A stretch of 51,132 nucleotides of DNA from Phenylobacterium sp. (lineage in GTDB: Bacteria > Pseudomonadota > Alphaproteobacteria > Caulobacterales > Caulobacteraceae). Of the stretch, positions 15,781-19,786 are shown one piece after another. The translations under genes and the position numbers were made by a program. Positions within the stretch are counted from its first letter, which is position 1. Every line of letters begins with the position of its first letter. Under the pieces are notes generated by a model, which worked only from the letters and a program-made list of their open reading frames with translations, was not told where the DNA came from and did no database searches. The stretch lies in contig NZ_JAEUMN010000048.1 in the NCBI RefSeq assembly GCF_016793225.1, forward strand, positions 1 through 51,132, given 5' to 3'.

Positions 15781-16514
15781 TCGAGCAGACTGTCGACATC
15801 CCCACGAAGGACGGGGCGACCACCACCTTCATCGTCCACCCCGAGCGGGGCGGGCCGCATCCGATCGTGCTCTTCTACATGGACGCGCCCGCCATCCGCG
15901 AAGAGCTGCGCGACATGGCGCGCCGCATCGCCGCCGTCGGCTACTACGTGATGCTCCCCAACCTCTACTACCGGCGCGGCGTCCTGGAGCTGGCCGACCT
16001 GCCGCCGCTGCCCGAGGCCGAGGCGCGGGCGCGCATGTTCGACCTGATGGGCTCGATCAACATCCCGATGGTCATGTCCGACACCGACGGCCTGCTGGAC
16101 TTCGCCGACCGGGACGCCGCCGCGAGCCCCGGCAAGGCGGGCGCGATCGGCTACTGCATGAGCGGCCAGTACGCGATCAACGCCGCGGCCCACCATCCCG
16201 AGCGCATCGCCTGCGCCGCCTCGCTGTACGGGGTGCAGCTGGTCACCGACCGGCCCGACAGCCCGCACCTGGCGGCGCAGAAGACCCGCGCCGAGCTCTA
16301 CTTCGCCTGCGCCGAGCACGACAGCTACGCGCCGCTCGAGATGGTCGAGGCCCTGGACGCGGCGCTGAAGGGCCGCGCCGACGCCGAGGTCGAAATCTAC
16401 CCCGGCGCCCACCACGGCTTCGCCTTCCCCCAGCGCGGCGCCGTCTACGACAAGCCCTCCGCCGAACGACACTGGGAGCGCCTCTTCGCCCTGTTCCAGC
16501 GGAACCTCGGCTAG
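15777..16514 (+). CDS. Dienelactone hydrolase family protein
   Basis: The product is 245 residues, an alpha/beta hydrolase of the DLH class. The nucleophile elbow is GYCMSG with Cys 127 in place of serine, the family hallmark. The acid is probably the Asp in ACAEHDSYAP, and the base is the His in YPGAHHGFAFPQRG. DLH enzymes open lactone rings such as carboxymethylenebutenolide, though many homologues act on other esters. Coupling to an SDR suggests a small catabolic unit. The ATG lies inside the SDR stop (4-base overlap). A repeat island begins right after the stop codon. Confidence 0.88.
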   Translation: MIEQTVDIPTKDGATTTFIVHPERGGPHPIVLFYMDAPAIREELRDMARRIAAVGYYVMLPNLYYRRGVLELADLPPLPEAEARARMFDLMGSINIPMVMSDTDGLLDFADRDAAASPGKAGAIGYCMSGQYAINAAAHHPERIACAASLYGVQLVTDRPDSPHLAAQKTRAELYFACAEHDSYAPLEMVEALDAALKGRADAEVEIYPGAHHGFAFPQRGAVYDKPSAERHWERLFALFQRNLG

Positions 16515-16520
16515 GCGGCG

Positions 16521-16892
16521 CCCCTCATCGCTGCGCGACGCTGATGAGAAGACCCAAGGCCCGATGCTCCCCCCATGGGGGAGCTCGCGAAGCGAGAGGG
16601 GGTCCGGCGCAGGGACTGGCCAGCGATGTGCGGCGTGGCGCCTTCCGGCGCCGCGGCGGAAACCCCCTCCCCATCGTCGCTGCGCGACGCTGGACCTCCC
16701 CCAGAGGGGGAGGACCCTGGGGATGATGCTCCCCCTCTGGGGGAGCTCGCGAAGCGAGAGGGGGCATTGGGGCGAAGGTCCTGCCGGCCACCCCCTCCCC
16801 GCCGCCGCTGCGCGCCGCCGGACCTCCCCCGAGGGGGGAGGAGCCTGGGGATGATGCTCCCCCCATGGGGGAGCTCGCGAAGCGAGAGGGGG
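16521..16892 (+). repeat. Composite hairpin repeat island, left part (units up to the DUF559 gene)
   Basis: Two building blocks alternate. Block alpha (about 41 bases) is a hairpin GCTCCCCC-nnn-GGGGGAGC joined to a second hairpin CTCGC-GAA-GCGAG and a G run; copies are at about 16563-16602, 16723-16764 and 16851-16892. Block beta (about 52 bases) is CCCCCTCCCC, a hairpin of CGTCGC-TGC-GCGACG type, then CCTCCCCC-nnn-GGGGGAGG; copies are at 16663-16714 and 16791-16842, with a worn one at 16521-16545. Alpha and the next beta are joined by a 26-base spacer gamma (16765-16790) that is itself a repeat. The first alpha-to-beta interval (16603-16662) is different and longer. There is no gene in this stretch. 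In loops and stems the changes are mostly compensated, which points to selection for structure. Confidence 0.9.
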
Positions 16893-16940
16893 TCAGCGCA
16901 GGGGCTTGTGTTCTTCTTTTGTTTCCACCATCGTCCAGCC

Positions 16941-17354
16941 ATGGACGCCGCCCGCCCTGTCCGCGACCGTGCCTGGGTCTACCGCCGCGCGCTCAGTCTC
17001 CCGGAGGTCATTCTCTGGAAGGCCCTCAAGGGCCGCAGGGCAGGGGGGCTGCATTTTCGGCGGCAGCATCCTCTGGGCCCCTACGTCCTCGACTTCTATT
17101 GCGACGCCCTGAAGCTCGACGTGGAGGTGGACGGCCAGGGCCATGGGTTCGGAGACCGACCGGCCCGCGATGCAAGGCGTGACGCGTGGCTGAGAAGCCG
17201 CGGTGTTCGCACGCTGAGGCTCTCGGCCGCCACGGTGTTGCGCGATGTGGATGACGCTGTCCGCACCATCCTGGCCGCCGCTGCGGCAACCTCCTCCCCA
17301 TCGTCGCTGCGCGACGCTGGACCTCCCCCAGAGGGGGAGGACCCGACGGTGTGA
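16941..17354 (+). CDS. DUF559 endonuclease-like protein embedded in repeat island
   Basis: A 137-residue product of the DUF559 family (Vsr/PD-(D/E)xK nuclease fold). Seen are the helix SLPEVILWKALKGRR, the strand pair FRRQHPLGPYVLDFYC (Asp 51) and LDVEVDGQGHGFGD (Glu 62, Asp 64), then the R-R-D-A-W-L helix and GVRTLRLSAATVL. The acidic residues expected for a metal-dependent nuclease are intact, so it looks active; no substrate is known. Residues from about 117 to the end (PSSLRDAGPPPEGED...) are translated from a beta repeat block, and the TGA stop touches the next alpha block. No strong ribosome site precedes ATG 16941; a GTG at 16908 behind AGGGG is an alternative start. An alpha block ends 48 bases upstream. 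Confidence 0.85.
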   Translation: MDAARPVRDRAWVYRRALSLPEVILWKALKGRRAGGLHFRRQHPLGPYVLDFYCDALKLDVEVDGQGHGFGDRPARDARRDAWLRSRGVRTLRLSAATVLRDVDDAVRTILAAAAATSSPSSLRDAGPPPEGEDPTV

Positions 17355-17419
17355 TGCTCCCCCTCTGGGGGAGCTCGCGAAGCGAGAGGGGGCATTGGGG
17401 CGAAGACCCTGGCGGCCAC
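17290..17419 (+). repeat. Composite hairpin repeat island, right part (beta-alpha-gamma)
   Basis: A beta block (17290-17341), a 10-base linker, an alpha block (17352-17392) and a gamma spacer copy (17393-17419; 4 mismatches to 16765-16790) in the same orientation as the left part. The beta block doubles as the 3' end of the DUF559 coding region. The order beta-alpha-gamma is thus kept across the gene, with the gene taking the place of one gamma spacer. Confidence 0.9.
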
Positions 17420-17496
17420 GCTCGCCCGGGACGGAACCCGACGGGTCTTTACTGACCTTGGGGCGCCGGTTGGCCAATGCGGTCCAGGAGGACCCC

Positions 17497-18321
17497 ATGG
17501 CCGATCAACCCATCCTGCTCACCGACAGCCCCGCGCCCGGCGTGCGGCGGCTGACCCTGAACCGTCCCGAGAAGCGCAACGCGCTGTCGAACCAGCTCCG
17601 GGGCGAGCTGTTCGCCGCGCTGGAGGCCGCCGACAAGGATCCGGAAGTGCGGGTGATCGTGCTGCGCGGGGCGGGCAAGTGCTTCTCGTCGGGCTACGAC
17701 CTGGCCGGCGTGGGCGAGCTGCCGTTCCACACCGCGGGCGCCCAGGGCCAGTGGGCGCGGCACGTGGTGGAAGGCTGCTTCCGCATGTGGGACCTGGCCA
17801 AGCCGATCATCGCCCAGGTGCATGGCTGGTGCCTGGCGGGCGGCTCGGAACTCGCGTTCGCCTGCGACCTTGTCTACATCGCCGAGGACGCCCAGGTCGG
17901 CTATCCGGCCGTGCGTACGATGAGTTCGCCCGACAACCAGTTCTACCCGTGGCTCATGGGCATGCGCGCGGCCATGGAGCTGATGCTGACCGGCGACTCG
18001 ATCTCGGGCGTCGAGGCCGCGCAGCTGGGCTTCGCCAACCGCGCCTACCCGGTGGAGGACCTGGAGCCGGCGGTGACCGCCATGGCCGAACGGATCGCCA
18101 AGGTGGACCCCGAACTGGCGCAGCTGAACAAGCGGCTGGTGCACCGCCAGATGGAGGCCATGGGCATGCGCGCGGGCCTGCGGGCAGGCACCGAGCTGCA
18201 CGCGCTGGGCTGGCACACCAAAGCCAGCCGCGAGTTCATGGCCAAGATGCGCGAGGGCGTGAAGCAGGCGCTGGACACGCGGGATTCGGCGTTCGGGGAC
18301 TATCGCACGAAGGAGGGCTGA
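17497..18321 (+). CDS. Enoyl-CoA hydratase/isomerase family protein
   Basis: The product is 274 residues of the crotonase superfamily. It shows LNRPEKRNALSNQL near the N-terminus, the oxyanion-hole strand GAGKCFSSGYDLAG, and the second oxyanion motif HGWCLAGGSELAFACDLVYIAEDAQVGYP. The acidic catalytic residues expected of true hydratases are not obvious at the usual places, so isomerase or another crotonase chemistry is possible. AGGAGGA seven bases before ATG 17497 is a near-ideal ribosome site. Repeat islands lie on both sides in opposite orientations: the left one ends 77 bases upstream of the start, and the right one starts at the base after the stop. Confidence 0.88.
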   Translation: MADQPILLTDSPAPGVRRLTLNRPEKRNALSNQLRGELFAALEAADKDPEVRVIVLRGAGKCFSSGYDLAGVGELPFHTAGAQGQWARHVVEGCFRMWDLAKPIIAQVHGWCLAGGSELAFACDLVYIAEDAQVGYPAVRTMSSPDNQFYPWLMGMRAAMELMLTGDSISGVEAAQLGFANRAYPVEDLEPAVTAMAERIAKVDPELAQLNKRLVHRQMEAMGMRAGLRAGTELHALGWHTKASREFMAKMREGVKQALDTRDSAFGDYRTKEG

Positions 18322-18675
18322 CCCCCTCTCGCTTCGCGAGCTCCCCCAGCGGGGGAGCATCATCCCCAGGGTCCTCCCCCGTTGGGGGAGGTCCGGCGGC
18401 GCGCAGCGCCGGCGGGGAGGGGGTGGCCGGCAGGACTTTCGGCCCCATGCCCCCTCTCGCTTCGCGAGCTCCCCCAGCGGGGGAGCATCATCCCGGGGTC
18501 CTCCCCGGTTGGGGGAGGTCCAGCGGCGCGCAGCGCCGGCGGGGAGGGGGTGGCCGGCAGGACTTTCGGCCCGCTGCCCCCTCTCGCTTCGCGAGCTCCC
18601 CCAAAGGGGGAGCATCCTCGACCCGAAGACCCTCCCTCTCGGGGGAGGCGGCGCGCAGCGCCGGCGGGGAGGGGG
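18322..18675 (-). repeat. Tandem array of the composite hairpin repeat, inverted orientation
   Basis: Nearly three units (18322-18449, 18450-18576, 18577-18675; 128, 127 and 99 bases). On the + strand each unit reads alpha (CCCCCTCTCGCTTCGCGAG, then CTCCCCC-nnn-GGGGGAG), linker, beta (CCTCCCC-nnn-GGGGAGG, GGCGCGCAGCGCC-type hairpin, GGGGAGGGGG) and gamma; the last unit lacks gamma. These are the same blocks as at 16.5-17.4 kb on the opposite strand. The array begins at the base after the enoyl-CoA hydratase stop and ends 19 bases before the convergent rsgA stop, so it fills the whole gap and probably also acts as a two-way terminator. Confidence 0.93.
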
Positions 18676-18694
18676 TGCGCATGGCCCTGCCGCC

Positions 18695-19786
18695 TCAGGC
18701 GCCGTCCGGACCCCGCCGCTTGTGCTTGATCCAGGCCCGCGAGGCCTTGTGGCGGCTGGCCCAGAGCCTGCGGTTCTCCTTGGCCGCCGCAGGGTCCTCG
18801 CGCCGATGCTCGTAGGCCAGTTCGGCCTGCAGCTTCTCGTATGCCGCCAGCCGCTCCGCCGGCAGCTCGCCGGACGCGATGGCCGCGCGCACCGCGCAGC
18901 CGGGCTCGCCCTTGTGCCGGCAGTCGGCGAAGCGGCAGGCCGCCGCCAGCGCCTCGACGTCCTCGAACGTCGCCGAGACGCCCTCGTCGGCGTTCCAGAG
19001 GCCCAGCTCCCGCATCCCCGGCGTGTCCAGGATCAGCCCGCCGGACGGCAGCAGGACCAGCTCGCGATGCGTGGTCGTATGGCGGCCCCGGGCGTCGTCC
19101 TCGCGGATCTCCCGCGTGGCCATCCTCTCCTCGCCGGCCAGGGCGTTCACCAGCGTCGACTTGCCCGCGCCCGAGGAGCCCAGCAGCACGGCGGTGCGGC
19201 CGGGCGCCAGGTGGGCGGCGACCGCGTCCAGCCCCTCGCCGGTCTTCGACGAGATGGCGAGCACCGGCGCGGTCACGGCGATGGCCTCCACCTCCGCCAC
19301 CTGGGCGGCGGCGTCGTCGGCGATGTCGGCCTTGGTCAGCACGACCACCGGGTCGGCGCCGCTCTCGTAGGCGGTGGCGAGGTAGCGCTCGAGGCGGCGC
19401 AGGTTGAGGTCGGCGTTCAGCGAGGCGACCAGGAAGGCCACGTCGGCGTTGGCCGCCACCACCTGGGCGCCGCCGCGGGTCCCGGAGGCCTTGCGGATGA
19501 AGGCGGTCCGGCGCGGCAGCACGGCGTGGACGAGCGCCGTGGTCTCGCCGGGCCGGGCCTCGACGGCGACCCAGTCGCCGGCGGCCGGCCGCTCGGAGTC
19601 CGCGCTCGCGCGCATGAGCGCGCCGGAGGCCCGGGCCTCGATCTCGCCGTCCGGCGTCACGATGCGATAGCCGCCGCGCTGCTGCACGACGATGCGGCCG
19701 GGCACGAGGCCCTGGGCGGCGTAGGGTTCGAAGTCGGCCTGGAGGCGATCGCTCCAGCCGTAGGCGTCGAGTGCTGAGGTCAGCAA
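18695..19786 (-). CDS. rsgA: Ribosome small-subunit-dependent GTPase A
   Basis: The product is 363 residues with the circularly permuted GTPase order typical of RsgA/YjeQ: an N-terminal OB-fold, then G4 (VVVLTKAD), G1 (LLGSSGAGKSTLVNAL), G2-like TTTH, G3 (LILDTPGM), and a C-terminal zinc knuckle (CRFADCRHKGEPGCAV). It checks late maturation of the 30S subunit and releases RbfA. The start is a TTG at 19786, supported by AAGGA eight bases upstream; no in-frame ATG fits the OB-fold. It converges on the enoyl-CoA hydratase gene across the repeat array. Confidence 0.94.
   Translation of the reverse strand: MLTSALDAYGWSDRLQADFEPYAAQGLVPGRIVVQQRGGYRIVTPDGEIEARASGALMRASADSERPAAGDWVAVEARPGETTALVHAVLPRRTAFIRKASGTRGGAQVVAANADVAFLVASLNADLNLRRLERYLATAYESGADPVVVLTKADIADDAAAQVAEVEAIAVTAPVLAISSKTGEGLDAVAAHLAPGRTAVLLGSSGAGKSTLVNALAGEERMATREIREDDARGRHTTTHRELVLLPSGGLILDTPGMRELGLWNADEGVSATFEDVEALAAACRFADCRHKGEPGCAVRAAIASGELPAERLAAYEKLQAELAYEHRREDPAAAKENRRLWASRHKASRAWIKHKRRGPDGA

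Follow-up and report, generated by a model that had tools for sequence, protein, structure and literature searches.

REP repeats are linked to RAYTs, which are described as single-copy and not self-mobile (PMC3116915). The CGTC REPs are palindromes mostly of alphaproteobacteria, defined as a single hairpin with a CGTC tag, a stem of 8-9 bp and a CCA tail, and their survey describes them as having no dedicated transposase (PMC3733652). The triplex motif of E. coli (BoxC/PIT/TM) is reported to form a triplex in vitro, and Holder et al. state that their data give no support for its stability as a triplex in vivo; they report no genes of the mobility type around the motifs of E. coli (PMC4666352). 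The DUF559-domain protein VsrA of C. crescentus (CCNA_02930) has been put forward as a mismatch-repair enzyme; it is required for the DNA-damage response of cells that lack the cytosine methyltransferase ScmA (PMC12907096). Our searches of the open-access literature found no link of DUF559 or COG2852 with repeats in titles and abstract openings, and nothing on REP together with Vsr or on the repeat sequences of this study used as search words.

We analysed a stretch of 51,132 nucleotides from Phenylobacterium sp., called here the window, which belongs to a genome of 4.6 Mb in 197 contigs with seven DUF559 matches. An earlier note on this DNA had reported that three blocks, alpha, beta and gamma, recur in a repeated order and that a DUF559 gene is located between copies of them, and both statements hold (Table 1). 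The best reading of the coding sequence, from an ATG at 16941 to a TGA at 17352-17354, confirmed that the final ~21 codons of the gene are the beta block itself (17290-17341). The stop codon, which was thought to abut the next alpha, does make contact with it and in fact overlaps its start at 17353.

Table 1. Positions of the DUF559 gene and of the repeat units in the window, and of GIY-YIG genes in other loci
Feature	Position	Strand	Basis or remark
DUF559 (Vsr-like/EDxHD-type) endonuclease gene, 137 aa	16941..17354	+	Pfam PF04480, AF2 model, fold matches
Alpha unit 1	16563..16602	+	Y-arm CTCCCCC, R-arm GGGGGAG, hairpin 2, mirror tail GAGGGGG
Beta unit 1	16663..16713	-	alpha-like architecture, inverted
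Alpha unit 2	16725..16764	+	
Beta unit 2	16791..16841	-	inverted
Alpha unit 3	16853..16892	+	left bracket; tail toward DUF559 gene
Beta unit 3	17290..17341	-	right bracket; doubles as final codons of DUF559 gene
Alpha unit 4	17353..17392	+	overlaps DUF559 stop codon
Third repeat array	18322..18612	-	beyond enoyl-CoA hydratase-like gene; arms 178 nt, 94% complementary
Inverted alpha cores of third array	18322-18347, 18450-18475, 18577-18602		beta units in between
GIY-YIG gene	L117:854-1261	-	
GIY-YIG gene	L285:1694-1982		
GIY-YIG genes, plasmid loci	L373-L384		

The window protein matched the Pfam PF04480 profile (E 1e-23; 83.7 bits, above the gathering cut-off of 20.6) and the NCBIfam DUF559 model PRK09767, which we take to be the YcjD model, at E 5e-19, far below the cut-off of that model. 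A search with its AF2 model (pLDDT 86, pTM 0.77) returned, in this order, 3hrl, an endonuclease-like protein matching the DUF559 profile, 3r3p, the catalytic domain of I-Bth0305I (E 1.4e-4), two mitoribosomal proteins and 1vsr (E 0.04). The similarity to Vsr is thus weak and by fold, while the catalytic fold of the EDxHD homing endonucleases (3r3p) is accompanied by their acidic residues, which the earlier note had considered intact: E22, D51, E62 and D64 are all present and invariant in a 45-row family alignment, and H68 is nearly invariant. None of the transposase families among the Pfam profiles matched the protein, and Rfam gave no intron family in positions 16000-19000 of the window, where its one match (E 0.15) was far below the gathering score. 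An identity with DpdF (PADLOC, E 1.6e-5) was rejected, the match covering the nuclease domain only, and PDB sequence matches with E values of 0.015 and above were regarded as chance hits.

The alpha unit has the layout CTCCCCC-TCT-GGGGGAG-hairpin-GAGGGGG. Beta is its inverted relative; in each of the two, a pyrimidine arm is followed by its purine complement, then by another short hairpin and a tail of purines. Alpha matches the three-arm triplex plan exactly, whereas beta unit 3 was not called by the strict triplex scan because its third arm is imperfect. The 26-nt alpha core has seven exact copies in the window (four on the + strand and three on the - strand) and 51 places in the whole genome when up to 3 mismatches are allowed (36 of these are exact), against none for the reversed control pattern. 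The alpha/beta family was found within 1.5 kb of only one of the seven DUF559 matches of this genome, the one of the window, and alpha/beta is thereby ruled out as the general partner of DUF559. DUF559 subfamilies pair with different repeat types, hence this figure: all seven DUF559 matches are, by eye, beside GC-rich hairpins that differ in sequence, and four of the six usable ones, including that of the window, had paired repeats of at least 40 bits in their flanks, the other two reaching 34.6 and 23.8 bits.

The flank test behind these scores compared 350 bp on the left with 350 bp on the right of the DUF559 domain, a shared repeat of at least 40 bits being counted as a pair. PF04480 was found in 47 of the 60 Caulobacteraceae genomes drawn, with up to 11 copies and 175 matches in total; 105 of these were sampled, mostly with up to 8 kb per side, and 103 were usable. 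Paired repeats bracketed 79 of the 103 DUF559 genes (60 inverted and 19 direct) and 10 of 972 control genes, the latter being other genes of the same stretches called with a simple in-house ORF caller rather than annotated genes; among small control genes (up to 220 aa), pairs occurred at 3 of 403. The earlier note had asked whether DUF559 genes lie next to alpha/beta blocks more often than chance; an excess is seen for paired repeats in general, although alpha/beta itself is near only one of the seven DUF559 matches of the window genome. The 60 inverted pairs give the arrangement of an insertion sequence, with terminal inverted repeats around one ORF, and the 79 pairs, with the matching across genera reported below, give that of the REP/RAYT system, in which the enzyme gene lies between repeats of its own type.

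The bracketing extends beyond the Caulobacteraceae. Pairs were found at 22 of 41 DUF559 genes of other alphaproteobacterial families (one best-scoring gene per genome, without a control of their own) and at 7 of 13 in other classes (best-scoring loci, again without their own control), one of these seven being inverted; one further locus was left out at a contig end. In a set of named loci, found with one protein and including Rhizobium, Sphingomonas, Lysobacter, Polaromonas and MAGs labelled Nitrospirae and Chloroflexi, 52 of 76 DUF559 genes were paired (25 inverted) against 3 of 258 controls, four of the 80 loci having been left out at contig ends. Among six plasmid DUF559 genes, hand-chosen from 44 records, the four paired ones were in Deinococcus and cyanobacteria, and the remaining two were in Azospirillum brasilense, with no pair, and Deinococcus NW-56, with one of 34.6 bits. 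No pair of 40 bits was present at 24 of 103 Caulobacteraceae and 24 of 76 named DUF559 genes, and for 44 of 105 genes a strict unit finder detected no unit in either flank. The unpaired genes do not form one clade (21 label changes compared to a shuffled mean of 23.4).

Most of the repeats that flank DUF559 share a layout in which a Y-arm, a loop and an R-arm are followed by either a linker or a second hairpin and then by a purine tail, the mirror image of the R-arm. T may stand for A in this mirror, as in purine-motif triplexes. Triplex-type motifs were located within 400 bp of DUF559 in 79 of 105, 65 of 80 and 47 of 55 cases (three sets) compared to 74 of 948 control genes, and on both sides in 48, 39 and 20 of these cases compared to 5 controls; the density of the motif beside DUF559 was 24-34 times that farther away. 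In this first scan, the enrichment of a non-mirror third arm was similar (60 of 105, 64 of 80 and 42 of 55) because many arms are symmetric, and this ambiguity is the reason why a test limited to asymmetric arms was made. Among 788 asymmetric-arm hairpins adjoining DUF559, a complete mirror tail was present in 316, a complete direct tail in 101 and one from shuffled arms in 44. The flanking repeats have the Y-arm, complementary R-arm and third arm mirroring the R-arm that define the BoxC/PIT/TM motifs, and by their sequence they look like potential intrastrand-triplex motifs of that type. The 'composite hairpin repeat' of the earlier note is thus a real repeat that is better given this name.

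Small orphan genes could have landed in repeat-rich gaps by chance, and repeats are indeed numerous. We consider the probability of this to be negligible, given pairs at 10 of 972 controls and at 3 of 403 of those of up to 220 aa (all from our own ORF caller) and the density of the motif beside DUF559.

In four repeat families, the bases of the second hairpin were paired at 88-96%, compared to 65-72% when its halves were swapped between copies. Its sequence varies and its pairing is kept, also when the repeats on either side of a single gene are compared; the first hairpin and the tail, in contrast, are constant. The alpha family, with 0.889 compared to 0.919 on four distinct inserts, was too uniform to discriminate. 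At the foot of the hairpins of 103 DUF559 flank pairs, the tetramer CGTC was found in 27, against 9 to 12 for GTAG, CTAG and GATG, a count of the tag at the hairpin alone. In some triplex repeats, the second hairpin may therefore be related to the CGTC REPs. GTAG, the tag of the REP/RAYT system, was not enriched (9 of the 103 flank pairs, with 10 and 12 for control tetramers).

One control gene with a strong repeat pair turned out to encode a GIY-YIG nuclease. Paired repeats bracketed 10 of 12 plasmid loci of stand-alone GIY-YIG genes, a small sample hand-chosen from 33 records, and a strict CGTC REP was within 500 bp of 8 of the 12, including 7 of the 10 bracketed ones. Among GIY-YIG genes found by pattern in the fetched stretches, 2 of 5 were bracketed; in Azospirillum lipoferum the GIY-YIG unit is between sufB and sufC. 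The bracketing of GIY-YIG is the DUF559 pattern repeated with a second homing-type nuclease, and we found no link of GIY-YIG with REP among the open-access papers listed.

Comparison of nucleases and repeats between genera showed a correlation of protein similarity with repeat similarity (rho 0.335 for 2714 pairs, kinship ignored), which none of 1000 within-genome shufflings of the repeats reached (mean rho 0.114). The nearest homologue in another genome had the best-matching repeat in 691 of 1361 cases, where 495 were expected; the matching is thus real but loose. The number of hairpins in 60 Caulobacteraceae genomes increased with the number of DUF559 copies (rho 0.63, kinship ignored). The hairpin/control ratio gave a rho of 0.60, the control count 0.10 and genus means 0.66. 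The expectation of the earlier note that repeat number follows DUF559 is thus supported, with exceptions in both directions: 4 of 13 DUF559-free genomes had an excess of the hairpin (G001, G022, G007 and G050) and 7 of 47 DUF559-bearing ones had none. Strong DUF559 matches (best E up to 1e-10, our own cut; 62 of 199 proteobacterial genomes, or 80 at E 0.001) were present in 32 of the 39 genomes in which one core triplex motif was in excess by 3 or more and in 30 of 160 motif-negative ones (kinship ignored). The repeat-rich genomes without DUF559 that the earlier note had named as evidence against its idea do exist: they are the four DUF559-free Caulobacteraceae genomes with a hairpin excess and, in the sense of lacking a strong match, 7 of the 39 (G388, G089, G264, G270, G291, G296 and G316).

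These genome counts also bear on the possibility that RAYT-type (Y1/HUH) transposases move the repeats and that DUF559 is unrelated to them. REP repeats elsewhere are tied to RAYTs (PMC3116915), and G044, the fourth richest genome in the hairpin, has four Y1 matches, three of them over the cut-off. However, Y1_Tnp (PF01797) is missing in the window genome and in five of the six hairpin-richest genomes (G051, G057, G003, G048 and G046), which makes such a mover very improbable. Among the 60 genomes drawn, it matched in nine, in eight of them over the cut-off, and was absent from 51, including the window genome.

One Caulobacter site, with flanks 93-98% identical to those of G051, had empty, pair-only and DUF559-unit alleles. 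Both flanks were present in 17 of the 30 loci read. The eight alleles described are an empty one with 12 bp between the flanks (G057), a gene-less 183-bp inverted repeat pair (G519 and G523), a full unit of repeat, DUF559 gene and inverted repeat as an insert of 543-591 bp (G051, G520, G585 and G588) and 292 bp of other sequence (G526); nine more distant loci had 35-812 bp between the flanks. The gene-less pair has its tails inward, the same layout as in gene-bearing units. No target-site duplication was seen at this single site, where the ends of the unit are not fixed to the base. Near-identical copies of DUF559 units were found in the window genome (97% over 566 bp) and side by side in G047 (96% over 553 bp).

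The neighbours of the window gene are tail to tail with nothing between them in G480, which was rejected as an empty site: the hydratase gene is inverted there, so that the comparison shows an absence plus an inversion. This enoyl-CoA hydratase-like gene (window 17447-18321) is located between inverted repeat arrays and has the opposite orientation to that in G480:C89 (L231), probably owing to an inversion between the flanking arrays. For the DUF559 unit of C137, the two neighbours were together in none of the matches listed among 100 relatives. A copy of this unit at a contig end (L391, G000:C105:26400-27731) has both hairpin ends and is lacking 262 bp, most of the domain; it shares sequence past the right hairpin and may therefore belong to a larger duplication. 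The Deinococcus DUF559 genes (L385, L387 and L390) are within hpa and paa catabolic clusters, and two Deinococcus species have the DUF559 gene at different points of one hpa gene cluster.

A house-keeping role as a VSP-like mismatch-repair enzyme, as proposed for VsrA, would make the flanking repeats incidental terminators or insulators. VsrA has a DUF559 domain, a damage role in ScmA-less cells and a residue spacing like that of the window protein (PMC12907096). We nevertheless find this role improbable for the bracketed genes, as their patchy and multi-copy distribution (in 47 of 60 genomes and with as many as 11 copies) and polymorphic presence between repeats are unlike those of a conserved repair gene.

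It is somewhat more probable, although still unlikely, that DUF559 is a passenger, a free-standing homing-type nuclease that uses the repeats as safe landing sites while these spread by other means, such as replication slippage or another enzyme. The closest fold of known function is that of the homing endonuclease I-Bth0305I, repeat-rich genomes without DUF559 occur, and GIY-YIG, another homing-type fold, is likewise located between repeats. The matching of subfamilies with repeats across genera and the link with copy number are unexpected of a pure passenger, and the gene-less Caulobacter pair has the tails-in layout of the gene-bearing units.

Our preferred reading, to which we give a probability of roughly 0.6, is that the DUF559 gene and its flanking repeats are one short mobile unit of the REP/RAYT kind, with a homing-type nuclease that acts on the repeats. 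The unit would consist of repeat, nuclease gene and repeat, mostly inverted in the Caulobacteraceae, and the gene-less pairs would be its non-autonomous relatives. The Vsr/EDxHD-type nuclease would recognise repeats of its own type, most likely in a folded state (hairpin or triplex) adopted on single-stranded DNA or at stalled forks. It would then nick or cut at the folded repeat or at a nearby target. Repair by copying from another copy of the repeat could then carry repeats, and sometimes the enclosed gene, to new places, so that the unit would operate like REP/RAYT with a more homing-like chemistry. The association, the matching, the copy-number link and the polymorphic insertion are observed; from these and from the homing-type fold we infer that DUF559 acts on its repeats and spreads them. 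The RAYT-like idea of the earlier note has fared better than expected on the two tests that the note had set against it, and it now has a wider scope. If DUF559 is the mover, it would define a class of repeat-spreading units with an enzyme chemistry unused by the known REP systems. The tie with repeats is relevant, too, to the way in which VsrA-type proteins damage DNA.

We tentatively extend this reading to at least three independent engines of dispersed palindromes in bacteria, each a small free-standing nuclease with repeats of its own class on both sides: HUH/RAYT with GTAG REPs, DUF559 with triplex motifs and GIY-YIG with CGTC REPs. If this is true, DUF559 and GIY-YIG would be homing-type spreaders of non-coding repeats and would fill the 'no transposase' gaps of the 2013 and 2015 surveys.

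The spread of repeats is directly testable in E. coli K-12, where ycjD, annotated as a DUF559 protein, is located beside a published motif; the tie with repeats would give this widespread and little-studied nuclease family a function. The fabI-ycjD gap (L372 5205-5240) holds motif no. 9, on one side of ycjD only, which was published at 1,351,204-1,351,239 as a type A motif with one mismatch (Table 1 of PMC4666352) and was not called by our strict scan because of this mismatch. The flanks of ycjD have no paired repeat, and a 41-base query of motif no. 9 matched 19 places in the median E. coli genome.

Comparison with these published motifs (PMC4666352) shows that the three-arm architecture is common to them and to the repeats flanking DUF559, that in the Caulobacteraceae repeats a further, variable hairpin precedes the third arm, and that a nuclease family is tied here to this class of motif, unlike in the E. 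coli report. The CGTC REP is a single hairpin with a CCA tail (PMC3733652), whereas the DUF559 repeats have CTCCC-type arms and a mirror tail; strict CGTC REPs flank GIY-YIG genes instead of DUF559. VsrA resembles the window protein in its DUF559 domain and in the spacing of its putative active-site residues, E-29-D-13-D-4-H, which is the same in both, and it was studied as a mismatch-repair enzyme (PMC12907096). I-Bth0305I carries additional DNA-binding regions and recognises a target of nearly 60 bp (PMC3943268), whereas the window protein is free-standing, with 137 aa between repeats. DUF559 genes occur several times per genome, some as near-identical copies, unlike the RAYTs, which are described as single-copy (PMC3116915). 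The REP/REPIN system with its RAYT has in common with the DUF559 units dispersed palindromic repeats, often in inverted pairs, a nuclease gene lying between repeats of its own type and gene-less pairs as non-autonomous forms; it differs in its enzyme, which is of the Y1/HUH type and not of the Vsr/EDxHD-type fold. I-Bth0305I and Vsr appear, from the predicted structure, to have a catalytic fold like that of the window protein. To our knowledge, no known repeat-spreading system has an enzyme homologous to DUF559, and for this reason we regard the unit as a new category. We grant that, despite this novelty, its logic is that of the RAYTs and its catalytic core is common to homing endonucleases.
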